A DNA stretch of 64,000 bases from Tetracentron sinense (lineage: Eukaryota; Streptophyta; Magnoliopsida; Trochodendrales; Trochodendraceae). Below, piece after piece: positions 3,526-64,000 of the stretch; position 1 is the first letter of the stretch, and each line of letters begins with the position of its first letter. The notes under the pieces were generated by a model. It saw nothing but the letters and a program-made list of their open reading frames with translations. It had not been told where the DNA came from and ran no database searches. Position numbers and translations under genes: made by a program. The DNA lies in NCBI GenBank assembly GCA_015143295.1, contig CM026571.1, forward strand, positions 9,924,501 to 9,988,500. Reading direction: 5' to 3'.

Positions 3526-3592
3526 CTTTTCTGAAAGAGGACTGGTCCTCAGCCTTAGAACCCTCAAGAAGCCATGGATTTTAACATGTCCA
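3526..3592 (-). CDS. LPEAT2: LPEAT2 exon 10, last exon in window
   Basis: This 67 bp exon follows a TTCACAG acceptor and encodes [18 protein letters not shown] then LSEK. Its GTTAGT donor opens intron 10, which runs off the window and contains a LINE. A diverged copy of this exon and its intron borders lies at 57807-58058. Confidence 0.9.
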
Positions 3593-24500: not shown

Positions 24501-27500
24501 AGAAGCAAGAAATTGGCAGTTGTTACACGATCCAATGCTGACGCAGAATACAGGGAAATTGCACTTGGAGCTTGTGAGTTAATATGGATCAAGATCCTTA
24601 TGATAGAGCTTGGGTTTCTAGTCTAGTCAGAGATGGAGATGTATTGTGATAACTGAGCAACTGTTAGTATTGCTCATTGTAGAACCCCGAATTTATTATT
24701 CTTGATATTCGTGATGACTATTAAATTTTATGGAAACCGTGTTTAAAAAATTTAATGTAATCAAACTCATAAATGTTATGCAAAATGCATTGATTTTGAA
24801 ACCCATAGAAATTACGTAATTTAAGACATTTTTGGAGTTAAATTTCATGAAAAGAAAGATAGACAAAATGTGGCAAGACTTTAAAAAAAAAAAAAAAGGT
24901 GATTGGCGCTCCAGCCGATCGATCGCCCAACAGCGGCGGCGATCGATCGCCAACAACGCCGTTTTGGCCTCTTTTTGCGCAATTTTTCGATTTTTGGAGT
25001 CCCTAGGGCTCCCAACACTATAAATACTCCTTATAATCGTAGGTTGAGAGTTTCTAAGGGTTTCTAAAGCTTTCTAAACTTAAAAGAGAGAGAGAAGGGG
25101 ATTTTGAAAGATTCAAGAGGAGAGATCAAAGGTTTTGCAAGAAAAAATGGTGAAAAGGCTTAGATCAATCCCATTCGCAAGCGCTTGATCCTAGGGAAGC
25201 GATCGGGAGAGGTTAATATAAATTCCTTCCTACCAATATGGTGATTTTGATATAAACATTATGAAAGTGATGAATTTCAACCAAGAACAAACAAGATTAA
25301 ACAAGCTTATGATGTTTCAATCTCTTATGGAAGATATATATGATGTTTAGAGAATGTTTTAATTATGAATTTCTTATAATAGGTAGATATGATGTTTTAA
25401 GAATGTTTCATTGTAATTTTATTATAGAAAATGGTTATGAGGTTAGAGATGTTATGATTTCTATTGTAAAAGATATTGATGATGTTAAAGATGTTCTTGT
25501 GATTTTATTATTCATATCAACAAGGGGAAAGGGAATGAATTTGTGGTGTATGTATGATGGAGAATGGAGGAAGGGATGATAATTGGATTTGATGGAATGA
25601 TTATGAGTTTGCTTTGAAATTATGATGTGTTATGAAACTAGGGTTTTGTGAGATTAATTTTATTAAACCATGCATTGAAAATTGAAGCATAATAAATAAA
25701 ATTGTTCCTTACTTTATTGTTGAAAACATAATAGATATCTTTTTATATAGATCAACTAAGAGAAATTCTGCATGTTTTAAACTGGTGTATGATTGACACT
25801 CATCATTATTTCACACACTCATTCACGAAATTAAATATGTACAAGCATGACAATAAGCAAGATAACAAGTATTATGCAAGTATATAAGAACACGAACATG
25901 ACTGTATGATTGAGTTTTGCACTGATCGAGTACCCACAAGCCTAAGATCAAGGCAAGACAAGCCGTATACACCGGTTAATGTGTAGACAAGCCGTATACA
26001 CCGGTTAATGTGTAGACAAGCCGTATACACCGGTTAATGTGTAGACAAGCCGTATACACCGGTTAATGTGTAGACAAGCCATATACACCGGATAATGTGT
26101 AGATAAGCCATATACACTGGATAATGTATAGACAAGCCGTATGCACCGGATAATGTATAGACAAGCCGTATGCACCGGATAATGTATAAACTGTGTGGTA
26201 CCTCGGAAAGTAGGGTATATGTTAATATTTACCCAATATATGGGGTAGAGTTATTTTAAGTTATTACACTTTGCATGTTGCTGGATACATTCACGAACAA
26301 GAAAGACCAGTAAGATAAATAGGAGAAACAAGTACAAGTGAGCACGCATAAGAATTGAGAAATTGAATTATGCTTCCGTACTCTGAATTGTTTATATGTT
26401 TACATGTCATGTTGAATTTTAAATTATGTTTTATATTAAATGTTGTTATATTGTTAGCTAGGAGTTTATATATACGCGACGTAACTTGTTACTCAGTCGA
26501 TGACTGTTGTTGTTGGCAGGTGCTAGATTTGATATTTGTGCCCAGGACCTTGGGAAGAGGAAGAGTACAAGGACGAAGAGGAAGAGCCAGCAGGTGATTA
26601 CCCCGATGGCGAATGGAATTTGGACCGTTGGCCATTTCATAGAAATTAGATTATTAGCATTTATATTTGGAGTTAAGACATTGTAATATACTTAATTTTA
26701 GATTTATGATTAAATTAAATTGATCATTGGGAATCACGATGTGAGATTTGAATTAATTATGATGTTTTAGTATTTTTTCCAGACATTAGACTTGATCAGG
26801 ATTTATTTAAAGAAAAATTTTCAGGTTCATGTTTTAGAATTGCCTTAAATGCTTTATGACAGGAAGATATGAAAGTGATGGTTAAGTCACGTGCAAAGTC
26901 TCACATTAACTTAGGTGGGATTTTGGGGCGCGACACTCATAATCCAGTTCAGTATGACAGGACGAAGCACATTGAAGTTGAGACACTTTATTCGAGAAAA
27001 GGTTGCTTCCAATGCATTAAATTCTATATGTCAAGACAGAGGATCAATTGCAAACATCATCACAAATCAATGGCGACAAGTTGACATCATGAAAATGTTA
27101 GCAAGCTGGAAATGTAAGATATCTATGCCCCGCTTGAGAGGGAGTGTTGTAATAGGCCTAGATCTATAAGCCCATGATGCATGGTAAACTTTATTTATGG
27201 TCGTATGCTTTTACACTATCGTGAGGGCATTACTGTAATTTATTATATTTTTTATAAATAAAGTTGTGGGTGTACACAAGTACACTCACTATTCCAGCTC
27301 TGAAGAACATGTTTCTCTTCTTTTCTACTCTTTTTCATCTTGTTTCTTCCATTTTTCTCTTCTAGGGCATAGTTTTCTACAATATTTAATCCATGTCTTT
27401 TTCAGATCTCAAAATCACCTCCCAAGCCCCAACAACCCAGACGGTCCTTAACCTCTTCATTATGCCACAGGAAATTACTACTCTGAATTGTTCACGCTCT

Positions 27501-32110: not shown

Positions 32111-35100
32111 TACCGAGTCGGCTGAGTCGAGTTTTTTCGAGTCTTCTGAGTTACTCGACCCTGCTAACTTCCGAGTTGAGTCGAGTTCTTGAGTTTTTGA
32201 ACACCGGTTTAAAGTTTCCAGATGCAAAATGAGGAGAAACCATTATCTGCAAGCGGAGGGAGGATATAACTATCAAGCATAGTTCAAAAACTCAGTGAGT
32301 CACTCGAGTAACTCGACCGAGATACTCGACTCGACTGAATTTCAGTCAGTTTTTTGACTTCCCAGACTAGGTCAAGTTACAGAATGATATTTTTATAATT
32401 TTTTAAAACTTAAACTCAAAATTCACACCGTATTTGCATCATTTTTTTGAGTCTACAAAGACAACCTACCATGAGTTCTGTTAAACATAGTTTTTAGGTT
32501 TGAGGCTATAAAACCAGCGTATTTTGATTTCTTTATTACATATATATTCCGAGTTGGACCGAGTCGAGTTTTCCGAGTTACTTGACCAGACTAACTTTCA
32601 AGTCGAGTCGTGTCGACTGTCGAGTCAAGTATTCGGGTTTTTGAACCATGCTATCAAGGTTCAGCCCCGGGATAGTTGGAATCTGGATTCATAAATTTCT
32701 TTGTGGGAGTTCTGGTTCTCCATAAATTTCTTTGTGGGAGTTATGATTCTCATGGGGAGCGACCAAAATACTCAATTCTAGCTAGATTTGTGGTTTGGCG
32801 ACTCCACACTTGATTTCCTTTGTTTTCGGCAAATCTGTAGATCAAATGGCCAAAGTCAATAATCAAAGAGGATGCATGGCTTGATCTGCGGTTCAAGGTG
32901 GATGTATTCAAGGCCTTTCGATCTGATTAGGAGAGACTGATAAGTGCTTAATTTTGCTTAATTATCCCAATTTAAATAACCATTATCATACTTCTTTAGT
33001 TTATATCTTTATTTTTACACGTAAAGTGGTGTATTCTCTTCTCACCATTGCGTTGTCCTTTCTCTTAAGTTTCATGATATATTTACATGTATTCATACAT
33101 GTCTCGGAAGGCCGCATGCAAAATATTTTTAAGAGAGAATTATTACGTGTATTTATTTTTTGTAGGAATCCTAACCCCAGACTACTCTCGGGATTCAAGA
33201 AGTCCAAATTTTCAAATAGCCCATGTTCAACTCAAAGATCTAAAGTAGCTAGAGCCCAAAGAGCAAAGCCCAAGCCAAAAGTCCAAAAAGCCAAGTCTCA
33301 AGTCAAAGAGTCAAAGCCCAAGTGCAAAGCCCAAGACCAAGTATAGAAAGATTCTACAACATGGCTGGAGAATCTTAGGAAGATGTGGATTAATATGATT
33401 TTGGTATAAAAAGGGTAGAACTCTCTTGAATTAGAAAGAAGAAGTGTGCTATATTGATGTTTCTATTTCAAAAAAAAGGAGAAAGCCTATTTTGGTCACA
33501 AGAACTTTTTATTTTGGGTGGATTTTGGAATTCAAGCAAGGAGCTTAATGGAGGTAAACTAAATCTACAAGAAAAACAAGAAATTTCGTGGATGACTAGA
33601 GGAGTGCTATTATTTAGCAACCAATCCCAAACAAAGAATGAGGATTTCCCGGATTCCCGCCTAATCTAGACAGTACTTACTAATTTGGACATAACTTTTA
33701 ACTCAAAATTCAGATTAAGGCAAGGTTTGATGTTTTGGAAAGAAGACTTAAAGGGGAACAAAATTGTATTTCACGAAGATCTCCTAATTCGGACGTTAAA
33801 GGGGTCAAAACATGTCGTCAAGTGGAGGGAAGTGCAATTTTGTTAGAATTTTGGAATTAGAAGTTTCTCTTTTGCTTTTTTTTTCCCTTCTCTTCTTCCC
33901 TTTAGTCTATATAAACCTAAAAGGAGAGACTTTTGGGGGCTCTCTGATCTTTTCTCATTCTCTTTTCTCTCTTCTTCTTTTAGTTTTTTTTGAGTTATTT
34001 CATTGTAATGTTTGGAACACCATTAAGGAGGATGACAACTCCAATCATGGTGGGCTAAACACCTTCTAAGGTTAGGGATTTGAAACCTTTTTCCGATTTA
34101 TGTGGATGATGTGGATGGTTTGATCATTAATTTTAATTGAATAGTTCTTATTTTGGTTAATTGTTCTTTTCTATATGCTCTTTGATTTCATATGATCTAT
34201 TGATATATGGAATGCTTGGATCCCCTATGAGTTAGATACAAAGAACTATTCAAATTTCTCTAATTATTCAATTGAATTTAATGGTCAGTGGTTTTATTGT
34301 ATAATTTTCCATCTAGATTAAATCTTTATTTAATTCTAGATGTGTTTTCATCCAAATCTAAGCATAAGGAAGGGGGATAGGTGGATTTTCCTGAAGCCTT
34401 AGACCTCTTTTTCATTACTTTACAGTTATCAGTGATTTTTGCTCCATCCTCATTGAGTGGAAAACCGATTTTAAATCTCTCTTCTCTCTAGATTTCGTTT
34501 AATTAATTCTTGTTGTACAATAGTCAATCCCTGTGGATTCGACCTTCTGCTCACCAGATACATCAACTGTGTCACTTGTGCACTTGCAAGTATATTATTT
34601 TTACTCTTGATTTTATGTCCATTAATTTGGATTAAATTAAGTTCTAACAAGTTTTTGATGCCATTGCCGGGGATTGCAACGTGTGACGAGAACACGGGTT
34701 ACGAAATTCTCCTATTCCCCATTCCCTCTAATTCTAACTCCTAACTTTTACTTTCTGCACCTGACTTCTAACTTTTACTTTCTTGCTCCTAACTTCTAAC
34801 TGCTAACTTTTACTTTCTTACTTCTAACTTTTAACTTCTAACTTCTATTTTCTTGCTTTTTAACTTAATTGAAAAAAAAAAAAAAGTCTGAATTTTTATT
34901 TTTAGTGGAAGGTTGGAATTCCATGCACCCTCCCACGGTAGGAAGTCAATTAACTTGCTTGAAGGGAATATATAACATAGGTGGAAGGTTGGAATTCCGT
35001 GCACCCTCCCACGATAGGTAATTAAGCGGATTGATATTGCTCGTGTAAAACAGGTACATCTATTGCTTGCCTACTTGGAAACAGACATTGCTTTGCCTAA

Positions 35101-38100: not shown

Positions 38101-41100
38101 TCTGTGGTGATTAAAAAAAAAGTTGACTCTGTTTAAAGAAACCGATACTTTGGATATTTGTCAGCTTGCACATGCACTCAAAATTTTCTAAATGGTGACT
38201 TAGTGATTTAGACTTTATTTAGAATGCTGGAATATATGGCTGAAATATAATGAAAACCAGTGCCCTAATAATTCTAAATTTGATGCCTTGATTAGAATGT
38301 GCCACATGAAGAAGTTTATTATGGATAATTTTTGTTCTTCTTCAATTGTTTTGAAAAGATAAATCTATTTTGAAAAGAAGGAGGATTGTCAGTCATGCTT
38401 TACAGTTATTATCCTGATTAATTGATTGACTATATTCTGCCTCTTAAATCTGAGTTGAAATCATTGTCATAGATGGGTGATGCTACTGAGAGATGAACTG
38501 AGATTCTTTCAAAATTTCTTGGTTGTCATGCATAATGAAAGTTTTCTGATTGTCTCATGGAATTGAAATGATGATATTTTGATATTGCTTCTTCACATTC
38601 TTTTTGCTCGAGGACTAGCAAAATGCTGGTTGGGGGGTGTTGATAAGTGCTTAATTTTGCTTAATTATCCCAATTTAAATAACCATTATCATACTTCTAT
38701 AGTTTATATATTCATTTTTACACGTAAAGTGGTGTATTCTCTTCTCACCATTGCGTTGTCCTCTTTCTTTTAATTTTTATGATACATTTGCATGTATTCA
38801 TATATGTCTTGGAAGGCCGCATGCAAAATATTTTTAAGAGAGACTTATTACGTGTATTTATTTTTTGTAGGAATCCTAACCCCAGACTACTCTCGGGATT
38901 CAAGAAGTCCAAAGTTTCAAATAACTCATGTTCAACTCAAAGATCTAAAGGAACTAGAGCCCAAAGAGCAAAGCCCAAGCCAAAAGTCCAAGAAGCCAAG
39001 TCTCAAGTCAAAGCCTAAGAGCAAAGCCCAAGACTAAGTATAGAAAGATTCTACAACATGGCTGGAGAATCTTAGGAAGATATGGATTAATATGATTTTG
39101 GCATAAAAAGGGTGGAACTCTCTTGAATTAGAAGGAAGAAGTGTGCTATATTGATGTTTCTATTTCAGAAAAAAGGAGAAAGCCTATTTTGGTCACAAAA
39201 ACTCTTTATTTTGGGTGGATTTTGGAATTCAAGCAAGGAGTTTAATGGAGGTCAACTAAATCTACAAGAAAAGCAAGAAATTTCGTGGATGGCTAGAGGA
39301 GTGCTATTATTTAGCAACCAATCTCAAACAAAGAATGAGGATTTCCCGGATTCCCGCCTAATCTAGACAGTACTTACTAATTTGGACATAACTTTTGACT
39401 CAAAATTCAGATTAAGGCAAGGTATGATGTTTTGGAAAGAAGACTTAAAGGGGAACAAAATTGTATTTCACGAAGATCTCCTAATTCGGACGTTAAAGGA
39501 GTCAAAACATGTCGTCAAGTTGAGGGAAGTGCAATTTTGGTTAGAATTTTGGAATTAGAAGTTTCTCTTTTGCTTTTTTTTTCCCTTCTCTTCTTCCCTT
39601 TAGTCTATATAAACCTAAAAGGAGAAACTTTTGGGGGCTCTCTGATCTTTTCTCATTCTCTTTTCTCTCTTCTTCTTTTAGTTTTTTTTGAGTTATTTCA
39701 TTGTAATGTTTGGAACACCATTAAGGAGGATGACAACTCCAATCATGATGGGCTAAACACCTTTCTAAGATTAGGGATTTGAAACCTTTTTCCGATTTAT
39801 GTGGATGATGTGGATGGTTTGATCATTAATTTTAATTGAATAGTTCTTATTTTGGTTAATTGTTTTTCTCTATATGCTCTTTGATTTCATATGATCTATT
39901 GATATATGGAATGCTTGGATCCCCTATGAGTTAGATACAAAGAACTATTCAAATTTCTCTAATTATTCAATTGAATTTAATGGTCAGTGGTTTTATCGTA
40001 TAATTTTCCATCTAGATTAAATCTTTATTTAATTCTAGATGTGTTTTCATCCAAATCTAAGCATAAGGAGGGATAGGTGGATTTTCCTGAAGCCTTAGAC
40101 CTCTTTTTCATTGCTTTACAGTTATCAGTGATTTTTGTTTCATTCTCATTGAGTGGAAACCAATTTTAAATCTCTCTTCTCTCTAGATTTCGTTTAATTA
40201 ATTCTTGTTGCAAAATAGTCAATCCCTGTGGATTCAACCTTGTGCTCACCAGATACATCAACTGTGTCACTTGTGCACTTGCAAGTATATTATTTTTACT
40301 CTTGATTTTATGTCCATTAATTTGGATTAAATTAAGTTCTAACAGAGACTGAGAGAGGATTATTCCCCAAAGATCAATTGAAGGCAGAATTGTTTGGGTC
40401 AAAAATCACTCTGGAATTTTATGTGATGAATCTGAAACTCAATCTCCACTTCATAACATATGGAATCTGTATCCACCTCCTAGATCTACAGATTTTATGT
40501 TGAGAGTGGGCCGCCGTGTCTGACAACCTTATATCCGAGTCCGATACCGGTGTCCGTGTCTGTGCAACATATGTGTTCTGCAATCAAGAAACGTGTTTAA
40601 AGAATGAGTACAGCTGAGATGGGGATGTTGAGATGGAAAAGTGGAAAGACAGCTATTAACCCTGGGGCCAGATGCAGGAAAACTCGAAATGCTGGAGAAA
40701 ATGTTAAGAAACTCTATCACAAAGAAGCCTATAGCCCTGTGAAAAGACCATTATACCTTGATGCCATGTGTTAAAAGAAGAGATGAACGAAAAAAAAGGG
40801 GGGAAAAAATGAAAACTTGACCCTTTTGTTTCACTTTCATAGCCAACACACTCCCCTCTCTCACAAAGGTTATAACAAAGAGTCAGATGACTTCATGATC
40901 TAGGATTGCGGAGCAACAAAGAAAATCAACCAACCAACAACGCAGAGGGACATTGCTCAAGAGTGGAGATCACTGATGGTTTCCATTAGAGTTAGGAGAT
41001 GAATTCATGATAGTGGGTGGAGGATGATCAGAGAATGTCTTTTTTGCTCCTAATTTGTATGTTTTTCTTGTTTTGGATTCTGAAACATTGCATCTTGGAG

Positions 41101-50100: not shown

Positions 50101-52210
50101 AAGGTTAACAATTTGAGGAAAGAAGAAGAAGACGGGAAGAAGGAGGAAAAGATCGCAGCCGCAACCTTCAATCCGTTGAAGAATTTCACAAAACGAACAA
50201 GTATCCTTATGCCCTATTTCTTCTCGATCATTTTCCTCTCTTCCTCTCTCATCTTCAACCTTGCTATCTGCACAGAAGTTTTTTGTTTTTTTAATCCACC
50301 TGCTGTGTCCAAATACAAATCAAACACAACAGCCTTCATCGTTGATGTTTGTATTCGTGCTGTCTATTTTTTTGTATTTGTGCTGTCTATTGTTTATAGA
50401 ACATAGCAGCCTTCTATGCTTTCTATTTGTGCTGTCTTTTTTTTTTGCTGGTATTCGTGCTGTTATTGTTTGGAATTTAGGAGTTGTATGGTTACTGTAA
50501 CGCATTGGTCTATTAGCCAATAGATGCATGCCCAGATAATTTTAATTATTATTTTTAAATCATTACCGAGATTTAACCGAGAAATACCCGAAAGAAACTC
50601 CAAATTTGAAAATCTCCCGAGAAAATCCCCAACCGATAAAACCCCGAGAATGATATTTGTAACACTGGTGGTCACCGCCAGTTTGTGAAGCCTATCTCTG
50701 TCGCATCTCGTTCATTTTTATGAGTTTGTCGGAGCCGGTGGGCTACTTGATCAGACTGTCATAATCTCCTCCCAAAGCACATGAAGTATGACCCGCGATT
50801 TAAAGAAAAAACTCTCGTTAGAAAAGTTTTCAATAAATGAAAAAAAAAAAAATCGTGAGGCATGAGTATGAGTATGAGAATTGAGGGTTGTAAAGGTACG
50901 GAGGATGATAGTAGGGTTTTTATTTAAAAAATAAATAAAATCAAAGGTTTCACACCCAGCAGGTGGTGTGCGGTGGTGGCACCACCCGCTGGAAAGAGAA
51001 AAACAAGAACTAAGCGGTCACCAAAGGGTGGCCCGCTCTGATACCATGATAGAAAAAGGATTATTGAATAGATTGGATAATCTCTACAGTGGTCATTGTA
51101 GTATACAAAGATGGATTACATTTAAAAATAGAAACAAAACCCCAATCAAATCTATCTTGTCTTATCTAATCAAATCTAATTAACATTCAAAAATATGATG
51201 AGATACACCTTCATACCATATTACACTACTACATATTATTCTCCAATACTATAGCGAATATAATCCATCAAATTGCATTTACGAGTCAACCCATGTATCA
51301 TGAACTCCAAGTTGGCCTGAAATTGAACCAGACTACAAACCTAGCAACTATACTTAATGGATGGTTCCCACTGCCTTCCACTTCATAACTTCCTTAAAAA
51401 TGGTTTGTAAGTTTTCCTTCCACTTAAGAACTTCCCCAAACAAGTTTCCCCTCCTCTACTCACAACTCTACCGAACTGTAACTACAAATCACATTGCAGT
51501 TTAACAAAGAGATTAGGTGAATAATTAAAAATACCCATCATTTCCTCTATCTTTCTAGGCCCTACTAGGCAACTTCTGTGAACATATATAAATTACAAAC
51601 AGTCCCAATTAACAGATGATAATTTTGAGATTTCTGACATGTCATAATCTAATTTCCACAAGTAAATGGCCTCTATTTCCAAGACATGAGAGATAACTAT
51701 GTGACCAAGCATGTAAACTAAGTGAATTGCTTGAGTAAACATAAAATCAAACACTCAAAAAGCTTACCCAAAACAAAACAGAATGCAGCGAGTAGAAATC
51801 CGAGTGACCCACATGACTCTGCACCTCCATTTGGGCATGGGATTATGCTTGTCCTTCCAACCCAAGAGAGCGATTTTGGTAGCGATGTACCCCACCACAA
51901 GGGAGAGACCGAAAAAGATAAGCCGAACAATAGCAATGGGAATACAAACAAAAATCTTCATCCATTCATAAACCCCTTCAATGTTGGGTGTGTGATTACG
52001 GAACGGATCGATCGGCGACGGCGGTGGCACCGAAAAGCTGCCGGCGCCGAGAAACTCAAAGGGGTTCTGATTCTCCACCAGGGTGGGCCCATGGTGATTG
52101 TAGTGAGAGCAGCCATCGTCGTCAATGTCAACGGTCACTTCGACTTCCCCCTTTGGGTCTTCGAGCTGTTCTGGGACCAAAAGACGAGCCCTGAGATCGT
52201 TTCCCGCCAT
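3526..52210 (-). CDS. LPEAT2: LPEAT2-type lysophospholipid acyltransferase, exons 1-10 (3' end off window)
   Basis: The product is expected to be an ER membrane acyltransferase that moves acyl groups from acyl-CoA to lysophosphatidylethanolamine and related lysophospholipids. Ten exons on the minus strand give 420 codons in one phase-consistent frame with no stop. The N-terminal part has an acidic soluble stretch, then a DPFRNHTP motif and hydrophobic segments at about residues 85-118. Acyltransferase motif I NHVSYVD is at residues 170-176, FPEGT at 242-246 and [10 protein letters not shown] at 266-275. The later exons ([27 protein letters not shown]) match the linker that precedes the EF-hands in Arabidopsis LPEAT2, as I recall that protein. 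The family is about 540 residues long, so roughly 120 residues with the EF-hands should lie left of base 1. The ATG at 52208-52210 is chosen because it opens the family-like N terminus and lies about 140 bp downstream of a TATA box. Intron lengths range from 92 bp to 17.9 kb. Confidence 0.93.
4628..4698 (-). CDS. LPEAT2: LPEAT2 exon 9
   Basis: This 71 bp exon reads [15 protein letters not shown] then FLSMNPDP plus two bases. Its borders are TGTACAG and GTAATG. It corresponds to the segment just before the EF-hand region. Confidence 0.92.
4795..5140 (+). mobile_element. LINE 3' end relic (RNase H C terminus)
   Basis: Plus-strand reading gives [13 protein letters not shown], then [11 protein letters not shown] and [16 protein letters not shown], the end of the RNase H domain of plant LINEs. 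It is followed by a 3' UTR and an A-rich tail near 5130. Frames are broken. It lies in LPEAT2 intron 8. Confidence 0.75.
5141..6330. other. Intron 8, no recognisable element
   Basis: AT-rich intron sequence. No domain, terminal repeat or gene was recognised. Confidence 0.5.
6339..6735. mobile_element. hAT-like MITE with 8-bp TSD
   Basis: The 397 bp element starts CATAGTTGCAGGGAAGC, and the reverse complement of its end starts CATAGTTACCAGGGCGAGAAGC. It is flanked by the exact 8-bp duplication TTTTATTC (6331-6338 and 6736-6743). The inside is rich in CGCTTCTCGCTTCC-like words. There is no coding capacity. The class is inferred from TSD length. Confidence 0.8.
6793..7141. mobile_element. hAT-like MITE, CAATG/CATTG-TTACAAATCTCG termini
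   Basis: The left end CAATGCTACAAATCTCG and inverted right end CATTGTTACAAATCTCG match each other. They also match the termini of the 1 kb element at 49632-50667, so both belong to one family. The flanking duplication is degraded. The body is full of CTCGCGAGAT-like words. Confidence 0.7.
7142..8125. other. Intron 8 sequence next to exon 8
   Basis: No gene or transposon is recognised. A short direct repeat, TCAACTTGAGTCCAGTA versus TTAACTCCAGTCCAGTA (7570-7650), is visible. Confidence 0.45.
8126..8170 (-). CDS. LPEAT2: LPEAT2 exon 8 (45 bp)
   Basis: This micro-exon has 15 codons, [15 protein letters not shown], between TTGCAG and GTGAGT. It was placed by the SYMVEM motif and by the frame needed to join exons 7 and 9. 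Confidence 0.88.
8480..10330 (+). mobile_element. RTE-type LINE relic
   Basis: Plus-strand pieces match the RTE reverse transcriptase in order: [13 protein letters not shown] (8710), [15 protein letters not shown] (8870), [17 protein letters not shown] (8950), LFTVVMDEM then LCMLFTDDM (9090-9150). The C-terminal tail [13 protein letters not shown] is at 9805 and [12 protein letters not shown] at 10190. There are many stops and frame changes. The body is split by a GAGTCGAGT-rich insertion at about 9272-9690. It lies antisense in LPEAT2 intron 7. Confidence 0.85.
9272..9690. mobile_element. GAGTCGAGT-rich MITE inside the RTE LINE
   Basis: The insertion separates two adjoining RTE segments. 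It begins near GGGTTCAAAATCCAAAGAG, ends in GACTCAAGTCGAGTTTCTC, and carries repeated ACTCG/GAGTCGA words. It resembles the two elements at 31219-32206 and 32278-32650. Exact ends and duplication are not resolved. Confidence 0.6.
10331..11576. other. Intron 7 sequence next to exon 7
   Basis: No recognisable gene. The open frame at 10907-11182 has no family resemblance and no splice context. Confidence 0.4.
11577..11672 (-). CDS. LPEAT2: LPEAT2 exon 7
   Basis: This 96 bp exon codes for 32 residues, from [17 protein letters not shown] to ASQSKQ, between TTGCAG and [21 protein letters not shown] is a clear match to the LPEAT2 linker. Confidence 0.93.
11869..11893. repeat. (TA)n microsatellite
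   Basis: Uninterrupted TA dinucleotides at the tail end of the minus-strand LINE. Confidence 0.9.
11895..12959 (-). mobile_element. LINE on minus strand, 3' half (RNase H)
   Basis: Minus-strand reading gives [20 protein letters not shown], then [19 protein letters not shown] (12340-12420), [20 protein letters not shown] and [18 protein letters not shown] (about 12080-12150). This is the RNase H domain that closes plant LINEs. The 3' end runs into a (TA)n tract at 11869-11893. The 5' half lies at 27387-28145, on the other side of Copia A, because Copia A inserted into this LINE. Confidence 0.85.
12960..13320 (+). repeat. Copia A 5' LTR
   Basis: Starts TGTTGTAATGGG and ends before the primer-binding site at 13321. 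It shares AGATCTATAAGCCCATGATG with the 3' LTR. Confidence 0.9.
13783..14340 (+). mobile_element. 5'-truncated LINE fragment (zf-RVT) inside Copia A
   Basis: The open frame to 14201 encodes the zinc-binding domain of a LINE reverse transcriptase: [38 protein letters not shown], then a [15 protein letters not shown] motif. It is followed by a 3' UTR ending TTACCGATCAAAGAAAAA. It interrupts the Copia A leader. No target duplication was resolved. The frame is intact, which suggests a fairly young insertion. Confidence 0.85.
18042..18261 (+). repeat. Copia B 5' LTR
   Basis: A 220 bp LTR starting TGTTGACAAAGG. It includes GCTATATTGTGTGTATTA and AATAATATATAAAGGAAATG, which are shared with the 3' copy. 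The TATATAAA is a likely LTR promoter box. Confidence 0.9.
18751..19549 (+). mobile_element. 5'-truncated LINE (RNase H) inside Copia B
   Basis: The fragment reads KLNTDGSS (about 19030), then [33 protein letters not shown], and a C terminus with [12 protein letters not shown]. This is the RVT_3 RNase H domain at the end of a plant LINE. It ends in a 12-A tail. The 14-bp duplication AAAAGTGATTGAAG flanks it (18737-18750 and about 19546-19559), a hallmark of LINE insertion. One frame change near 19080 separates the first strand of the domain from the rest. Confidence 0.9.
24148..24348 (+). repeat. Copia B 3' LTR
   Basis: A 201 bp LTR after the polypurine tract GAGGGGGAG. It ends just before the GTCTT duplication. 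Confidence 0.9.
24678..26935 (+). mobile_element. Solo LTR of a Gypsy (Del/Tekay-like) element
   Basis: The 2258 bp block starts TGTAGAACCCCG and ends TTGGGGCGCGACA, termini typical of Del/Tekay-type Gypsy LTRs. It is flanked by the 5-bp duplication CTCAT (24673-24677 and 26936-26940) and contains no gag or pol, so it is a solo LTR. A TATA-like CTATAAATACTCC lies at 25019. A 29-bp minisatellite fills 25956-26188. It interrupts the RNase H remnant of Copia A. Confidence 0.85.
25956..26188. repeat. 29-bp minisatellite, 8 copies
   Basis: The unit begins AGACAAGCCGTATACACCGG and ends TTAATGTGT. Early units are identical. Later ones drift (GGATAATG, TATGCACC), so divergence increases along the array. 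Confidence 0.95.
27145..27381 (+). repeat. Copia A 3' LTR
   Basis: Starts TGTTGTAATAGG directly after a GCTTGAGAGGGAG polypurine tract and ends TTTTCTACA before the ATATT duplication. Confidence 0.92.
27387..28145 (-). mobile_element. LINE on minus strand, 5' half (reverse transcriptase)
   Basis: Minus-strand pieces read [19 protein letters not shown] (28070-28130), [13 protein letters not shown] (about 27800) and [16 protein letters not shown] (27500-27550), the reverse transcriptase of a plant LINE. It continues at 12959 across the Copia A insertion. Homology stops near 28145. The frame is interrupted in several places. Confidence 0.85.
28146..29608. other. Intron 6 sequence next to exon 6
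   Basis: No gene recognised. Bases 28150-28500 have a different, more GC-rich texture (TGCGCC, GGCCCATAAAGCCC) and may be an unidentified repeat, but no ends could be defined. Confidence 0.4.
29609..29677 (-). CDS. LPEAT2: LPEAT2 exon 6
   Basis: This 69 bp exon (23 codons, [15 protein letters not shown] and DVVHFAER) is isolated between the two largest introns (13.8 and 17.9 kb). It has AACAG and GTGAGT borders and matches VEYLPVI...VRLSQK of the Arabidopsis protein as remembered. Confidence 0.9.
29815..30643. mobile_element. hAT-like non-autonomous element with TATATATG TSD
   Basis: The left end is CTGGGCTCTCAAACTGACCC, and the reverse complement of the right end is GGGCTGTCAAAGGGACGGGCC. 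The 8-bp duplication TATATATG is exact (29807-29814 and 30644-30651). GC-rich ends flank an AT-rich core. No coding sequence. Confidence 0.7.
31090..31218 (+). mobile_element. LINE relic, first piece (C-terminal RT)
   Basis: Reads [20 protein letters not shown], the conserved stretch after the reverse transcriptase of plant LINEs. The relic continues at 32215-32277 and 32659-32937. Two hAT-like elements and then a Gypsy element inserted into it. Confidence 0.75.
31219..32206. mobile_element. GAGTCGAGT-rich hAT-like element, copy 1
   Basis: A 988 bp element with ends CATAGTACTAAAACTTGGCG and (inverted) CGGTGTTCAAAAACTC. It is flanked by the exact 8-bp duplication GTTTAAAG (31211-31218 and 32207-32214). 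Both ends are dense in AACTCGGCCGAGTC-type words. A compound (CG)n(CA)n(TA)n tract sits near the right end. Confidence 0.8.
32033..32110. repeat. Compound microsatellite (CG)n-(CA)n-(TA)n
   Basis: Consecutive runs ACACACAA, then CG repeats, then CA repeats, then TA repeats. Such alternating purine-pyrimidine DNA can form Z-DNA. Confidence 0.9.
32278..32650. mobile_element. GAGTCGAGT-rich hAT-like MITE, copy 2
   Basis: A 373 bp element with ends CATAGTTCAAAAACTC and (inverted) CATGGTTCAAAAACCC. The exact 8-bp duplication CTATCAAG flanks it (32270-32277 and 32651-32658). It shares the ACTCGA/GAGTCG words of copy 1, which lies only about 70 bp away. Confidence 0.85.
32659..32937 (+). mobile_element. 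LINE relic, last piece
   Basis: Reads [13 protein letters not shown] (about 32780-32820), the linker before the zf-RVT domain. An imperfect tandem copy of CATAAATTTCTTTGTGGGAG lies at 32688-32755. It is cut off at 32937 by the Gypsy element. Confidence 0.6.
32938..34649 (+). repeat. Gypsy 5' LTR
   Basis: A 1712 bp LTR. It contains a TATATAAACC promoter-like box near 33906 and pyrimidine tracts, all shared with the 3' LTR. Confidence 0.92.
34727..35025 (+). repeat. Leader repeats in the Gypsy element
   Basis: Degenerate tandem units of CTAACTTTTACTTTCT lie at 34727-34870. A direct repeat of a roughly 40-bp block starting GTGGAAGGTTGGAATTCC lies at 34903 and 34980. Confidence 0.8.
38641..40344 (+). 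repeat. Gypsy 3' LTR
   Basis: A 1704 bp LTR, nearly identical to the 5' copy. It follows a polypurine-like GGTTGGGGGGTGT. Confidence 0.92.
40345..41789. other. Intron 5 sequence, no recognisable gene
   Basis: No domain was recognised. (GA)n tracts occur at about 41700-41715 and 41770-41786, each followed by ACT. Confidence 0.4.
41790..41971 (+). mobile_element. LINE 3' UTR relic with hairpin
   Basis: Ends GATGGTTACCGATAAAAAAA, the same tail as the LINE at 1-2837. It contains an inverted repeat at about 41801-41850 (CTACTATTGAAGGCCCC against GGGGCCCCTTCTATAGTAG). Confidence 0.6.
42094..42787. mobile_element. Emigrant/pogo-like MITE, TA duplication
   Basis: The left end is CAGTAGGCCCTCTTATAATT, and the inverted right end is CAGTAGACTCTCTTGTAATT. 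It is flanked by TA on both sides (42092-42093 and 42788-42789). The CAGTA...CTCT..AATTAATA terminus is the Emigrant/Lemi (pogo) type. It is 694 bp, AT-rich and has no open frame. Confidence 0.8.
42788..43460. other. Intron 5 sequence next to exon 5
   Basis: AT-rich, with T and A homopolymer runs at 42990-43050. No gene seen. Confidence 0.45.
43461..43524 (-). CDS. LPEAT2: LPEAT2 exon 5
   Basis: This 64 bp exon follows a GTTTAG acceptor. It completes the Trp codon begun in exon 4 and encodes [13 protein letters not shown] then TQFHNFME, a family-conserved stretch. Its GTATAT donor opens the 13.8 kb intron 5. Confidence 0.92.
43617..43780 (-). CDS. LPEAT2: LPEAT2 exon 4 (motifs III and IV)
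   Basis: This 164 bp exon follows an ATATAG acceptor and ends in the Trp codon of HFDQSW at a GTATGA donor. It carries FPEGTTTNG (242-250) and [10 protein letters not shown] (266-275), the acyl-acceptor and acyl-CoA binding motifs of the family. Confidence 0.95.
43781..45033. other. LPEAT2 intron 3
   Basis: 1253 bp with GTAGAA donor and ATATAG acceptor. No transposon recognised. Confidence 0.7.
45034..45093 (-). CDS. LPEAT2: LPEAT2 exon 3
   Basis: This 60 bp exon codes for residues 209-228, from VIYVNRFS to SEIK, and corresponds to acyltransferase motif II. It lies between TTCTTAG and GTAGAA. It is too short to be found by ORF length and was placed by family alignment and phase. Confidence 0.9.
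45208..45388 (-). CDS. LPEAT2: LPEAT2 exon 2 (acyltransferase motif I)
   Basis: This 181 bp exon begins after a TTGCAG acceptor and ends at GTAATT. It carries the catalytic NHVSYVD (NHxxxxD) box, residues 170-176, followed by [19 protein letters not shown]. The split codon shared with exon 1 restores Gly148. Confidence 0.95.
45971..48018 (+). mobile_element. Small non-autonomous LTR element (TRIM/LARD-like), plus strand
   Basis: LTRs are 45971-46180 (210 bp) and 47790-48018 (229 bp). A primer site TGGTATTAGAGCGGG follows the first and GAGGGGGAG precedes the second. The likely 5-bp duplication is ATACC (45966-45970 and 48019-48023). The internal 1.6 kb shows no pol domains, only a short gag-like stretch near 46600 and a GGCCCATAGAGGC repeat array. 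The LTR is of Copia type. It lies in LPEAT2 intron 1. It is broken or coding-incapable. Confidence 0.8.
47255..47570. repeat. Degenerate GGCCCATAGAGGC repeat array
   Basis: About ten irregularly spaced copies of a GGCCCA(T/A)AGAGG(C/T) word lie inside the small LTR element. A repetitive open frame (GPRGPHLWP...) is a by-product. Confidence 0.75.
48024..49196. other. Intron 1 sequence between the two small LTR elements
   Basis: No gene or element recognised. The word TTGTATTTGGGTAATGTAGC (48707) is echoed in inverted, shortened form near 48840 (TAACATTACC), which hints at a small inverted repeat. Confidence 0.4.
49202..51248 (-). mobile_element. Small non-autonomous LTR element (TRIM-like), minus strand
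   Basis: On the minus strand the 5' LTR is 51046-51248, followed by the primer site TGGTATCAGAGCGGGCC (51029-51045). The polypurine tract GAGGGGGAG and the 3' LTR occupy 49202-49515. The exact duplication CTATA flanks the element (49197-49201 and 51249-51253). Without the hAT-like insertion at 49632-50667 the inside is only about 0.5 kb and codes for nothing recognisable. The LTRs are related to those of the element at 45971-48018. The two LTRs differ in length. Confidence 0.85.
49632..50667. mobile_element. hAT-like non-autonomous element, CAGTGTTACAAATATC TIRs
   Basis: The 1036 bp element has perfect 16-bp inverted ends CAGTGTTACAAATATC and the exact 8-bp duplication GTGGTCAC (49624-49631 and 50668-50675). 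The ends are rich in CGCGAGAAA words, as in the copy at 6793-7141. About three diverged 95-bp tandem units rich in GAAGAAGAAG lie at about 49890-50190. No transposase. Confidence 0.9.
51254..51767. other. Intron 1 sequence next to exon 1
   Basis: No element recognised. It leads into the GTAAGC donor of exon 1. Confidence 0.5.
51768..52210 (-). CDS. LPEAT2: LPEAT2 exon 1
   Basis: This is the 443 bp start exon, coding for residues 1-147 plus two bases of the next codon. It holds the N-terminal acidic region, the DPFRNHTP motif, one or two membrane segments and the [15 protein letters not shown] motif. It ends at a GTAAGC donor. Arabidopsis LPEAT2 has a similar layout (GWKDKENPMP, as remembered). 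Confidence 0.93.
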
Positions 52211-54225: not shown

Positions 54226-54424
54226 TAAATGGAATTACCTCACAGGTCATGGATAGGACACAAAATGAGTGGAGATGCTCACAAGCAACTTCCTGCTCTC
54301 GGGAGCTAGATCTGTTTTAACGTATTGAAGTGAAGTTCTTCCGCCTAAATATTTTAACTTTTTCCCCTATATGTATCATCTGATTTTTCACATTTAAAAG
54401 TACTCACTACAAGAAAAAAGATTT

Positions 54425-55803: not shown

Positions 55804-56432
55804 TATCTACCTCAACAATTTACGGTCTGAAATAGTCAAAGTTATTTGTATGGGTGCGCATAGACTAAGTCATTCTTATAAAAAAATTCAAACCATCTGG
55901 ATAAAACATCAAGAATATCACAATTGTAGATGCATGATCATAATATACTAAACCACAATTATAATGTTTAAGTTAATTACAAATCAATCCGCTCGGAGCA
56001 ATAGAAAAATCACATGTCAGCCTATTAGAATTCTGCTGGGGTGAACTTTATCCTAAATCCAACTAGGATAGTCTCTTAGATTAGATATTGAGGTCATGTC
56101 ACTATGTCGGTATGATTTGGGGTCCTTAGTCATTACTCCTATGTAGTTTGCATTTTAATGCTTTCCAGTCGATTGAAATATTTTAAATACCTAAAATACC
56201 CCTTAATCTAATGAATATAAGAAAAGATGTGTTTGTAAGAGGTTGAAATATTTTAAGGATGATTTTAGTCATTTTTCATCCCTCTCTCACAAGTCCAATC
56301 ACTTGCACACTCAAACGTTCCCCTCTCTCTCCTAACGTCCCTCTCACTCTGTCCTTTTTTTACCCCTCTGTCTCCCCCTTTAGCAGTACAGCCAATTGCG
56401 ATTGAACTCAGGAACATATCCACAAATCAGCA

Positions 56433-56632
56433 AATGTCATTTTTAATCCTTATTAACCATAGTTAAAATTTACTATTCCTTAAAGTTTAGCAATTTAACC
56501 TTAATATTTAGAAATTATTCTGATTTCAATTGCACCCACAAGTTTGCAAGTGTCATTTTTAATCCTTATTAACCATGGTTAAAATTTACTAATCTTTAAA
56601 GTTTAACAATTTAACCTTAATTTTTGGAAATT
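56433..56632. repeat. Tandem duplication of about 115 bp inside the CACTA
   Basis: The block GTCATTTTTAATCCTTATTA...AAATTATT occurs twice in a row with about ten percent difference. It contains the AACCAT(A/G)GTTAAAATTTAC word of the TCCGGT MITE family. Confidence 0.75.
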
Positions 56633-56739
56633 ATTTTTAAAAACATTAATTTTACGGTTTGTGGGTCCCGTAGATTCCTCTTGTCCTTATATTTCTTTAG
56701 AATCCCAGTATAATAGAATTGTATTTATCAAAAAAATAA

Positions 56740-57378
56740 ATAAATTGGGATTGAACTCTCCCCAAATTCAATCACACCCTAGTCATCACAGGTCACTTTT
56801 AATCCCTATTAATTGTGGCTAAGTTTCATGTACTCTTTCTATTACTAATATAATGAGAATGTCCCCTTAAAAATGTAGGTTGATTTTTTTAAAATTCCAC
56901 TACCCTTACCACACTCATACTACGCTACTCATTTTGCTTAATTCTCATACGATCCCTTATTTGAAACTTTAACTAGGGTTTAAAAAAATTAATATTTTTT
57001 CCTAAAAATCAAGGATAGGTGAGTGAACTCTAGGGATAGGTGAATCTTAACCACAGTTAAGGGGTGTCAAAAGAGACACATAGCAACCTCAAGGACATAA
57101 TTGGACTCCACTGTGGTTAAGATTCAACCACCCCTAGGGTTCACCAAATTATCATTGGTTTTTAGAAAAAAATATTAATTTTTTTCAGACCCTGGTTAAA
57201 ATTCACTACCTCCTAGGGTTAATTTTTTTTTTCATATTTTTTGAAAAACCAAGGATAAGTGGGTGAACCCTAGGAGTGGGTGAATCTTAAACCACCCTAG
57301 GGGTGGGTGAATCTTAAATCATAATTAAAGAGTGTTAAAAGAGACACATGGCGACCTAAGTGGCATAACTGGACTCCT
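56740..57378. mobile_element. TCCGGT-family MITE copies B and C
   Basis: Copy B (about 56740-57108) ends TTAAGGGGTGTCAAAAGAGA...ATTGGACTCC. Copy C (about 57109-57378) opens CTGTGGTTAAGATTCAACC, lacking the first TIR bases, and ends CATAACTGGACTCC. Both match the arms of copy A at 52857-53061. Confidence 0.6.
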
Positions 57379-57806
57379 CGCTCTCTTGATAAAACACTCT
57401 GAAAGAAGAACGTCTCGCCAAAGCCCTGCCCGCCTCCTTTTTTTTGCTATACCCTAAATGCCCTTAAATCCTTTTGGTTTTCAAAATATCCCTACTTCAT
57501 ATTTCTATACCTAATGTATCTCTTGCAATTTTTTTATTCACAATGTCCCTCAAGTTTCTATATTCAAAATATTCTTTAATTTTGTTTTCCAAAATGCCCT
57601 CACTAGGGTCCCTCATATCAGTCTCCCTCCCCTTCTCCTCTATCTCACGTGCATCGTGCTATCCACTACTTAGCTATTGTATATTTGTAATAAGCCGTAT
57701 AATCTTTATTAGCTTAAATTGAATAAGCTGAAAATGTCGTTGTATCACATGAATGTTTTTTTTTGTACCATTTAACTTTTGAAAAAAGCTAGTATCAGAT
57801 TCTCAC

Positions 57807-58058
57807 TCTGTCATCCTGTTCACAGTGGACGTGTCAAAATCCACGACTTCTTGAGGATTCTAAGACAGAGGGCTAATACTCTTTGAGAAAAGGTTAGTCT
57901 ACCCTTGTTATTACATTCTCATGCATAATATCAGCACTCTTTTCTTATACATTTTCTAGATAACAGCTGACCCAGTATATTATGACTTATAAAGTGTTCT
58001 CCAGCATGTTGTGTTTTCAAGTAACAATGTCTTGATTAAAACCATGGTAGGGTTCACC
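57807..58058 (+). pseudogene. LPEAT2 exon 10 fragment captured in the CACTA element
   Basis: This plus-strand block aligns from CCTGTTCACAGTGGA to CCATGGTAGGGTTCAC with the minus strand of 3352-3611. It covers the end of intron 9, all 67 bp of exon 10 and about 170 bp of intron 10, at roughly three-quarters identity by eye. The exon reads GRVKIHDFLRILRQRANTL, then an in-frame TGA, then EK at the GTTAGT donor. R and D in GRV..HDFLR agree with Arabidopsis LPEAT2 as I remember it, where the neighbouring intact gene has H and G. It cannot encode a functional enzyme. Confidence 0.85.
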
Positions 58059-59415
58059 GATTTGCCTAGGTAGCATAGCAATTTTGGAGTTTTGAAAATC
58101 GAAATCCAGTTACGAAGTCTTAATGTAAGCTAATATATCTTGAACATCATTTTTTTGTGAACAGAAACAGGTGATGGTACTGCTAATGCTATTTTGGCGT
58201 AAGTTTCTCCACTAATGTCTTACCTGATGCACATGACACCTAGCATGCTGGTAGCCTGGTAGTACTCCTAACCCAAATTGGATTTAAACTAACTGGGCGT
58301 GTATTGTAAGGAGGTTTTAGAGCAGGCAAAAACTCTGACCCTGTCATTCCATTTATGGTAAGAAACTCTGGGTTGAAATTTGTTGAAAGCATAATTGGGG
58401 CTTTGTCCCTGATTTGAGAAACATTAAGTTGGCATACTTGAGATGTACAAGGTTGTTAAAACAGCGTATTAAATTTGTCGAACATTATATTCTAAAGTTG
58501 GACTGTGTAAGTAATTTTTTGTTTTGTGGTTGAAGCTGGTAAGTATAGTCACGAGACAGGAATACATTCATTTGTTTAGATTAATAGAACATGCATAGGA
58601 TGAACAAAGAAGAGTTTATGTTTTAGTTAAATTTATCGGCTGTTGTGTTAACAAAAAACACTACATTTAGTTAATGTGTAAACCGAAACCAATAGAATAA
58701 CTCATACTAATTTCAAGAGCTTAAGAATACTGAAATATCCATTTGGGACTACATAAGGCTCCATTGGCTCTACATAAGGCTCCATAGCTAAGATGAGTTG
58801 TCTTTAAAATATGTTTTGGAAATTGGCAGACCTTAGGACATTCGATAATCTTAATGTTTTGGCAATCCAATTCTGCTTTGATAACTCATAATAATCGCAA
58901 ATAACATGCCGATGTTTTCATAGAAAATGAGAAGATGCTAACAGAATTTTAAAGCATGAGTTCACTTGGGACATGTAAATAAATACAGCCAAACTGTACT
59001 TCGAAGGTCAAAAAATACAGCCATAAATAGGCAATTAAAAATAGACATGTCAAAAAATATAACAATGGCAAAAAATTTAACAATGGCATTTGGATTGTCC
59101 CAAGTCGAAGGTCACGTATCATTTCCACCAACTTAAATAGAGAAAAAGCAAAGCAACATAACATTAAAATTGTACTTCAACTGGGAAAAAGATTGAGTGC
59201 ATGAACATGTCCAAATATACCTGCTCCGCGTGGTAGCGACTGTATGGCTTTGTCCCAGCTGTGTGGGACATTGTCAGCTTGGCCCGGTTTGCCTTATTTT
59301 GGGCCACAATTACTTATATTACAGTGTTAATTATAAGGCTCATGGAGACACTTTATTTTAAATAAATAATAAACTGACATGACCGTAAACATAAAAGTGA
59401 CGTTCAATTCCATAC
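58059..59415. other. CACTA internal sequence, unidentified
   Basis: Lies within the large intron of the TNPD-like gene. A 37 bp stretch after a GTGAACAG acceptor-like site, ending at GTAAGT (58164-58201), can read TGDGTANAILA, but no family is recognised. A direct repeat of CTACATAAGGCTCCAT lies at 58751 and 58772. Confidence 0.4.
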
Positions 59416-61219: not shown

Positions 61220-61894
61220 TTAATCATCAGATTCAGAAGATTCAGAAAATGCGAGCTCAGAAGCCTCCTCTTCATCCTCAAATGTTGGCTGGGTGACTAG
61301 TAGAGGTATTTTAACAGTTATCCCAACTACATTTGGCCTGACTTCGAAAATATCTACGTCTCCATCAGTCACTTCCAAACATTCAGCGTTGTGTGCAACA
61401 GTTTCAGGGCATGTCTCTCCAATGTCTACACTCCCTTCTTCTTGCATGTCAAAGAAATCCCTAGGCTTTATCCTAATAGCAACATGCCAGTCCTTTTCAC
61501 TGGGATCTTCCACATAGAATACCTGCATTGCTTGAGAAGCGAGCACATATTTATCTTCGGTGTGTAATATTCGTTTCAAATTTACAAGTGTGAACTGAAG
61601 ATCATCTTGCTTGATACCCCTACTATCAATCCAATCACATTTAAATAAGACAACGCTCCTACCTTCATAATAGTCTAGTTCAATGACATCTTGCAGGACT
61701 CCATAATAAATAATGTCGCTTGTAACCGGAGAATTGTCGTTCACAAATTCGAATGAGGTCGTTGTTGTAGTAAGGAAGACTCCGCTATTTTGATTTTTCC
61801 TTTTACGATCAACGTCTTTTGTACGAAATCGAAAGCCATTAATGACAAACCTCTTGAATTGTCTTGCAATATTGGATGGACCACGGCCAGCCAT
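61220..61894 (-). CDS. CACTA TNP2 C-terminal part (DUF4216-like)
   Basis: An open frame of 224 codons. KRFVINGFRFRTKD and QNSGVFL lead into YYGVLQDVIELDYYEGRSVV, FKCDWIDSRGIKQDD and ASQAMQVFYVEDPSEKDWHV, the DUF4216 domain at the end of CACTA TNP2 proteins. An acidic tail (EDEEEASELAFSESSESDD) precedes the stop. The listed ATG is inside the domain. The true upstream reading (HVSNDVKWLA) is in another frame, so there is one frame change near 61890. Confidence 0.85.
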   Translation of the reverse strand: MAGRGPSNIARQFKRFVINGFRFRTKDVDRKRKNQNSGVFLTTTTTSFEFVNDNSPVTSDIIYYGVLQDVIELDYYEGRSVVLFKCDWIDSRGIKQDDLQFTLVNLKRILHTEDKYVLASQAMQVFYVEDPSEKDWHVAIRIKPRDFFDMQEEGSVDIGETCPETVAHNAECLEVTDGDVDIFEVRPNVVGITVKIPLLVTQPTFEDEEEASELAFSESSESDD

Positions 61895-62229
61895 TTGACA
61901 TCATTACTGACATGGGCCTCCAATCCTTAACGCAACGACTTGGCGTATTATATAGTCATAAATTTTTAATTAGACATAGTAAAACTTTTAGAATACTTGC
62001 AAATACCTTCTTAATCCATACAACTTACATTTGAAGCAAACCATGAAGGAAATTCACTATTGTGAATCCGTTCTTGGTCTATCTGTCATTGTGATAGTGA
62101 ACATAAACTATTTCTCAATGTTTCCTGCAATACAAGGACATAGCTCGTAAAGCCCTAATAATGGCCTGGAATGTAGATAATTAAATGAAAGTTACATTTC
62201 GGGAAACCAAACATGTCTTACGTGATGAA

Positions 62230-64000
62230 TGATGTCATGTCAGGGCAATTGAAGAGGACATAACGATGCATTTGCGCCCGTGATTCATTAGATAGAGTCA
62301 CTATCTCCTCTTTTCCTATCGCAAGGCCGGGCTTTGAAAAAATGGATAATCATGATATGTTACAAGGGCATTGTGGTCGTAATTCCTTGGAAGTCAGCTA
62401 ACCTTTGTCTCGACATCATGTAGATACCTCGAACAAAAAGTGAGGCATTTCTTAGCAAGATATCCTTCTGCAATTGAACCCTCGAGCCGACTTCTATTGC
62501 GGACATATGATTTTAATGTAAGTAGGTACCTATGCACATTGAGAATCCATTTTGAAGTGAATTAATGATAAAAAAAAAAACATTATTCACAAAATATTGC
62601 AAGACCATAACTTGAAAGCATTGTCACACACCTCTCGATGGGGTACATCCATTGGTATTGTACAGGACCGACAATCCTCACTTCGCTTGCCAGATGGATT
62701 GTTAAATGAATCGTGATATCGAAGAATGTTGGGGGAAAATTCTTTCGAGGTGGCACAATGTAATAGCAAAACGGCTTTCTAGTTTACTGAGTTCCTGTAC
62801 TTTATTAACTTTGGAGCATATTTCCCTGAAGAAGGAGCTAAACTCATTCAACGTGATGCAAATGTTTTTTGGGAGGCATTTGCACATTGCAACTGGAAGT
62901 AATTTCTGCATAAGAATGTGGCAATCGTGACTCTTCAAACTAGATATTTTTTGATCCTTGGTATTTACGTACCATGATATATTTGCTGCATAACTATCTA
63001 GCACTTTAACATTGGATAATACCTTACAGAAAATGTCTTTCTCTTCCGAAGACAATGAGAAGCACACCGGAGGTAAATATGTTCTTTATCCAACTGCGTA
63101 AGGATGAAGCGCCGATCTAATACCCATATGTTTGAGATCAAGACGTGCCTTTAAGTTGTCTTTTGTTTTCGCTTCTATATTCAATAATGTACCGACCAGG
63201 CTGTCATAGACATTCTTTTCAATGTGCATGACATCTAGGTTGTGGCAGATTAGAAGGTACTCCTAGTATGGTAGATTAAAGAAAATATTTTTCTTCTTCC
63301 ACCCAATGTGTCGTCGGTGGTTATTTTTTCGCTTCTTAGCAAATGTGTTTGCCATGTGCTTTTCAAAGGAGTAACTGAGACCTGACAACTGGTCTAATAG
63401 CTCGGTGTCGGACAATGAGATAGGAGTGGGACTCAGTTCTGCTTCTCCCTCAAATGATTTTCTTTCGTGACGAAATTTTTGGTTGGCTTCCAAAAAACGA
63501 TGATGACCCATGTAGCAAAACTTTCTGCCATGTTTCAAATACTTACTACAAATGTTTTGATTGTAATGCGGACAAGCATACCGACCCTTGGTGCTCCATC
63601 CCGAGAGATTTGTGTATGCAAGAAAGTCATTTGTTGTCCATAATAACGCTGCACGCATCAGGAAATTTTTATTACTTGAAGCATCGTAAGTATATGTGCC
63701 ATCCACCCACAACTCCTTCAACTCATCTATTAGCGGTTGCAAATATACATCAATGTCATTCCCAGGCGCACAAGGACCTGGAATTAGTAGCGACATAAAG
63801 AAGTAAGGTTGCTTCATGCACATCTAGGGTGGGAAGTTGTATGGCATCAAGACAATAGGTCATGTGCTATGAGCAATACTGATTGTACCAAATGGATTGA
63901 AACCATCGCTTGCAAGCCCAAGTCTGATGTTGCGTGGCTCGGCAGCAAAATCTGGAAAATTTTCGTCGAGATGTTCCCAAGCTGGGGTGTCGGCGGGATG
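62230..64000 (-). pseudogene. CACTA TNP2-like transposase, main part, truncated by window edge
   Basis: Minus-strand reading from 64000 gives NIRLGLASDGFNPFG, then KQPYFFMSLLIPGPCAPGND, IDVYLQPLIDELKELW and NLSGWSTKGRYACPHYN. SRKFCYMGH-like GRKFCYMGHHRFL follows, the Transposase_21 (TNP2) domain. CHNLDVMHIEKNVYDSLV at about 63200, DUF4218-like sequence (SHDCHILMQKLLPVAM, 62702-63067) and a QY.WMYP-like segment near 62640 come next. Several tryptophan codons have become stops (three around 63250-63860), with frame changes after 62700, so the transposase is not intact. Confidence 0.88.

Follow-up and report, generated by a model that had tools for sequence, protein, structure and literature searches.

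Introduction

On wheat chromosome 3B, 140 capture events by CACTA elements were counted, and the number of captures per genome was estimated at about 2,500 (PMC4290129). As in these wheat captures and in soybean Tgm-Express (PMC1947982), the locus described here combines CACTA ends with intron-containing host-gene sequence. It is distinguished from them by a single exon with its intron flanks, by a mosaic with sequence resembling another contig (C11) and by its position beside the donor's duplicate. Pack-CACTAs likewise pair CACTA-type ends with captured gene DNA, but are described as having no transposase gene (PMC8903248), whereas our element carries transposase pieces and its captured fragment is not abutted by CACTA ends.

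A second group of described systems concerns filler DNA. Animal gap-filled Pack-TIRs (PMC8277862) and maize Ds2 and Ds-l4 (PMC3260210) carry interior filler that came from elsewhere, as we propose here, and the breakpoints of such filler often show short sequence similarity. The gene-derived filler of maize Ds2 and Ds-l4 includes introns and has sources on other chromosomes, although these elements belong to other superfamilies than the CACTA element studied here. The animal fillers are reported mostly near their donor, whereas the donor proposed here is on another chromosome. After transposon excision in rice, foreign segments were incorporated during break repair via synthesis-dependent strand annealing (PMC4423477), a process that we likewise propose; the rice fillers measure 1–123 bp and lie at excision sites, while ours measures about 0.94 kb and lies within the element.

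We analyzed a window of 64,000 nt from Tetracentron sinense (contig CM026571.1, positions 9,924,501 to 9,988,500), in which a CACTA element upstream of an LPEAT2 gene contains a fragment resembling that gene. We consider it likely that the block holding the fragment is a filler-DNA mosaic, left when a break in the element was repaired by template-switching synthesis, with a duplicate LPEAT2 gene on contig C1 (N1) as one template and C11-like sequence adjoining. This would be an event of a familiar type, instructive in its arrangement, with both the donor and the likely target reassigned.

Results

The window gene (N21), which we take to be LPEAT2 from a tblastn search with an Arabidopsis LPEAT2 protein, spans about 55 kb. 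Together with the window's own translation, this search placed exon 1 at 51764–52210 on the minus strand, with the ATG at 52210. The name also draws on two acyltransferase-domain matches, one of 27.0 bits (Pfam cut-off 23) and one of 19.4 bits, below the cut-off; a genome search with PF01553 listed 24 places, with neither the window gene nor N1 among them. The exon of interest, 67 nt at 3526–3592 on the minus strand, is called exon 10 in the numbering of the first-pass annotation of this window, which we keep as provisional, the short exons not all having been seen here. Two other features lie in introns of the gene. Direct repeats of about 1.7 kb with 96% identity (32938–34649 and 38641–40344) enclose retrotransposon-polyprotein-like frames, and together they are probably an LTR retrotransposon, a class assigned by eye. 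A tandem duplication of about 116 bp, with copies 88% alike, occupies 25956–26191.

On contig C1, matches to the LPEAT2 exons run from first to last across 5604066–5644299, where neither the short third exon nor a fifth was seen. The collinearity of C1 with C21 extends across the gene as far as it was fetched, and beyond its 3′ end, and N1 and N21 are therefore duplicates. We call them homeologs, a label that assumes a whole-genome duplication; a literature search returned no paper treating LPEAT2 together with whole genome duplication. Other LPEAT genes were rejected as donors: of 21 protein-search matches, 17 belong to LPEAT2 on C21 or C1, and the four weak ones elsewhere (two at C1 25.2 Mb, one at C5 43.6 Mb and one at C6 42.3 Mb) were not returned by the block search.

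The first-pass annotation had placed the fragment inside a CACTA element beginning 2.2 kb upstream of LPEAT2, and this description holds. The element's left end is at 54405, 2,195 bp from the ATG, and the element continues to the end of the window at 64000 and on to about 76957 in coordinates extended to the right. Its 13-bp terminal inverted repeat, CACTACAAGAAAA, starts at 54405 and pairs with a reverse complement ending at 76957, so that the terminal inverted repeats starting with CACTA that mark the superfamily are present. The flanking 3-mers, ACT and AAT, are alike at two of three bases, which is not a clean target duplication. The minus strand at 61223–63823 carries transposase pieces recognized by a domain search: Transposase_21 at 63266–63823 (191.5 bits, cut-off 28.6), a partial DUF4218 at 62705–63085 (26 bits, just below the cut-off of 27) and DUF4216 at 61223–61900. 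A tnp2-type transposase is thus present, in pieces, and a further minus-strand piece with Transpos_assoc lies to the right of the window (L026:631-1059). The left 1.9 kb of the element has at least 58 matches in the genome, from scoring the best 40 of 263 candidates. Nested in the right part of the CACTA, beyond the window at extended coordinates 67459–73567 (L027/L026), is an element that is copia-like by eye, from its open frames; its 398-bp repeats are 99.2% identical (three mismatches) and it is therefore a young insertion.

We found that positions 57809–58068 match 3609–3338 of the minus strand at 78.0% over 273 columns (E 1e-59, 222 bits; blastn of 57601–58300 against the window), and that a second piece of 36 bases, 57705–57740, matches 3642–3607 at 86% in the same search. 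Among 200 first-order Markov shuffles of the block, each of which gave at least one hit at E up to 10, the best score against window positions 1–57600 was 41 bits. The exon itself accounts for only 67 nt of the match, copied on the plus strand at 57826–57892, and the remainder is intron; the copy was therefore made from DNA, and an origin as a retrocopy is ruled out. Both parts of the initial description, an inverted LPEAT2 exon with its intron flanks and a copy taken from DNA and not from mRNA, are thus borne out. We also searched the 1.16-Gb genome with a 501-base query (57700–58200), by a method that skips very common words and so yields lower bounds for repeats. It returned five places: the block itself, C1 (92% over 493 bp), the window gene (78%), 54 bases on C20 and 41 bases on C5. 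Occurrence at many unrelated loci, which the first-pass annotation had named as the mark of a repeat, was therefore not what we found, and the fragment itself is not a dispersed repeat, a description that is true of the 1.5-kb piece that splits it. The short C20 and C5 matches concern LPEAT2 intron sequence at window positions 57988–58041, of which 41–54 bp recur at L033 4974–5027 (C20) and L034 4919–4959 (C5) with 93–95% identity; they are nearer to N1 than N21 is, and the two loci are themselves 81% alike over 1.1 kb.

We compared the fragment with both LPEAT2 copies. It matches N1 in two parts, window positions 56021–56167 with C1 5635340–5635502 (85%) and 57670–58457 with C1 5635524–5636333 (90.7%), both on the plus strand and with gaps counted. 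The 923 aligned bases include 48 substitutions (K2P 0.054). The N1-like piece, about 0.94 kb in all, extends well beyond the part common to the window gene and includes N1 intron sequence that does not align to N21. In a three-way alignment of 345 columns, 257 are identical, 67 group the fragment with N1, nine group it with N21, ten group N1 with N21 and two differ in all three. On these shared columns, K2P is 0.064 between fragment and N1, 0.274 between fragment and N21 and 0.270 between N1 and N21; the longest exact run is 108 bases with N1 and 20 with N21. The grouping of the fragment with N1 was recovered in 1000 of 1000 bootstrap replicates, in a three-sequence comparison without an outgroup, rooted on the assumption that N1 and N21 have changed at comparable rates.

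N1 is thus the closest relative found for the fragment, and these distances suggest that the fragment was most likely copied, at the DNA level, from N1, which lies on another chromosome, rather than from the adjoining gene. The donor named in the first-pass annotation, the gene next door, is accordingly replaced by C1 5635340–5636333. That the CACTA took its fragment from the adjoining LPEAT2 is suggested by adjacency and by a match that is significant in itself, 78% at E 1e-59. We nevertheless regard it as scarcely credible, given the larger distance to N21, the N1 intron sequence in the fragment and the absence of all 897 fragment 21-mers from window positions 1–52300. A capture that predates the LPEAT2 duplication, leaving a fragment as old as the N1/N21 split, would account for the position beside one of the two copies. 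It predicts equal distances to both, unlike those observed, and we consider it very improbable, the more so as the region near N1 shows no trace of this CACTA. Searching 39.7 kb of C1 around N1 (E up to 1e-5) revealed no similarity to the window's CACTA beyond the fragment itself, as expected if N1 served only as a template. If both copies evolved at equal rates, the copying would have about one fifth to one quarter of the duplication's age.

The fragment is part of a larger block, 55945–58892, that is unmatched in relatives of the CACTA. Where the window has 2,948 bp, the relatives L042 (C5) and C1392 (L061) have 113 and 444 bp, respectively, between the equivalents of 55944 and 58893; weak similarity to CACTA relatives may restart near 58878. 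The fragment was matched (E up to 1e-5) in none of the 19 other left-end loci retrieved, each of which reaches about 1.5 kb past its match, and searching 15 of them with greater sensitivity yielded no more than stray fragment matches of 21–26 bases. The whole-genome block search returned no further copy of the N1-like patch.

Within the block, the N1-derived parts are flanked by sequence resembling contig C11. On the left, 55983–56027 (plus strand) is identical over 45 bp to C11 41766465–41766509 (minus strand). On the right, 58466–58568 (plus strand) resembles C11 41766275–41766384 (minus strand) at 82%, with the first 31 bases identical. Both patches correspond to one C11 locus, where they lie 80 bp apart, and about 40 C11 bases are missing beside the right join. 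At each of the two joins (56021–56027 and 58451–58457), C11 and N1 are alike at six of seven bases, a similarity that is short, imperfect and read by eye. For the stretch next to the fragment, C11 itself is the only place among the matches listed (best 40 of 3425 candidates), which says little about copy number, as known C21 matches are also absent from that list. To the right of the C11-like patch, short pieces resemble C21 at 23.5 Mb (77%) and C1 at 62.5 Mb (83–90%), and no clear source was found for 58569–58892 or 55945–55982.

The two N1-derived parts are separated by a distinct repetitive element of 1.5 kb at 56168–57668. It has at least three near-full-length copies, on C12, C1305 and C23, at 90–92% identity (query positions 9–1509; best 40 of 12616 candidates), and is probably a later insertion into the fragment. 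This repeat has internal inverted repeats and many copies, and its ends, judged by eye, match no recognized class.

The order of C11-like, N1 and C11-like sequence is the expected outcome of repair synthesis with template switches. A break inside the CACTA element would have been repaired by synthesis that switched templates, one of them the N1 intron–exon–intron stretch, leaving adjoining sequence in the patch that resembles the C11 locus; the 1.5-kb repeat would have landed in the fragment, probably afterwards. One feature expected of filler is seen here, in that the relatives L042 and C1392 are without the patch. N1 is collinear with N21 and free of this CACTA in 39.7 kb, as an unchanged donor would be, and the short similarity at the joins may be microhomology or chance. 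We infer the repair mechanism from this arrangement, and the repair may have occurred where the element now lies or earlier, prior to its insertion there. The same order is compatible with an N1 filler put into an earlier C11-like patch, one event and two being indistinguishable in the outcome.

Alternatively, two CACTA ends could have flanked the N1 piece on C1, moved with it as a unit and landed beside N21 by chance. Such a mechanism has been proposed for Pack-CACTAs (PMC8903248, PMC13317346), and CACTA elements do move between chromosomes. The element has the host-gene DNA of a Pack-CACTA, yet it also contains transposase genes; ends of the CACTACAAG type occur, by an exact-motif listing, only at its outer ends; the fragment is abutted by C11-like sequence instead of CACTA ends; and the 39.7 kb around N1 are free of similarity to this CACTA. 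Therefore, we consider this origin unlikely.

We next consider what the fragment could encode or target. In the copied exon, an in-frame TGA at 57884–57886 is accompanied by further substitutions and, as a single exon with an in-frame stop, the fragment offers no usable coding piece. The copy has its LPEAT2-sense strand on the plus strand, opposite to the transposase on the minus strand, so a transcript of the transposase strand through the fragment would be antisense to LPEAT2. None of the 897 fragment 21-mers occurs in window positions 1–52300, which hold N21 exons 1 to 10 (the last exons, in L028, fall outside this count), whereas 292 of the 897 occur in the 39.7 kb of C1. For the exon by itself, 21 of 47 21-mers are common to N1 and 0 of 47 are common to N21. 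The neighboring LPEAT2, earlier suggested as the target of RNA from the fragment, would thus give way to the distant copy. Antisense RNA, if transcribed, would resemble N1 much more closely than the adjoining gene, and small RNAs that pair perfectly would be expected to act on N1.

Discussion

The proposed repair would account for the origin of the fragment, and its position beside the donor's sister copy calls for a separate explanation, which may be chance or repair guided by the homeolog. A random site falls within N21 or no more than 5.6 kb from its ends with a probability of 5.7e-5. Using wheat's 2,500 captures, a number that may not be this genome's, each genome would be expected to hold about 0.14 such cases, and fewer if some donors have no duplicate; moreover, only matches within the window could be noticed at the outset. 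Consequently, chance is a fair explanation of the adjacency. In the wheat study (PMC4290129) we saw no case of a CACTA capture beside the donor's homoeolog, though published cases may exist. Nor is a capture beside the parent gene unusual in general, as had been supposed: unique animal Pack-TIRs lie within 15 kb of the parental copy in 160 of 281 cases, and plant Pack-MULE sequences often come from other chromosomes (PMC8277862).

It is also conceivable, if rather doubtful, that the element was repaired at its present site and that the homeologous N1 region was picked as template since duplicate regions still find each other. Such a repair would explain donor and location together, agrees with a filled element found only once, and recalls the animal fillers, which derive preferentially from nearby DNA (PMC8277862). 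The C11-like part indicates that repair can use a template that is no homeolog, unless C11 too is related, and the location is already fairly explained by chance. Template-switching repair, at whichever site it took place, remains our preferred reading.

The locus shows how the wrong donor can be named when a duplicate gene pair is seen through only one of its members, here the neighbor in place of the neighbor's sister on a different chromosome. Together, fragment, donor and sister make a trio whose relative ages can be estimated. Counts of homeolog-proximal fragments across polyploid genomes would test homeologs as repair templates. If repair in place from the homeolog is true, old genome duplicates would still find each other and leave sequence in transposons near their sisters, and may thereby give rise to antisense RNA acting on the distant copy.
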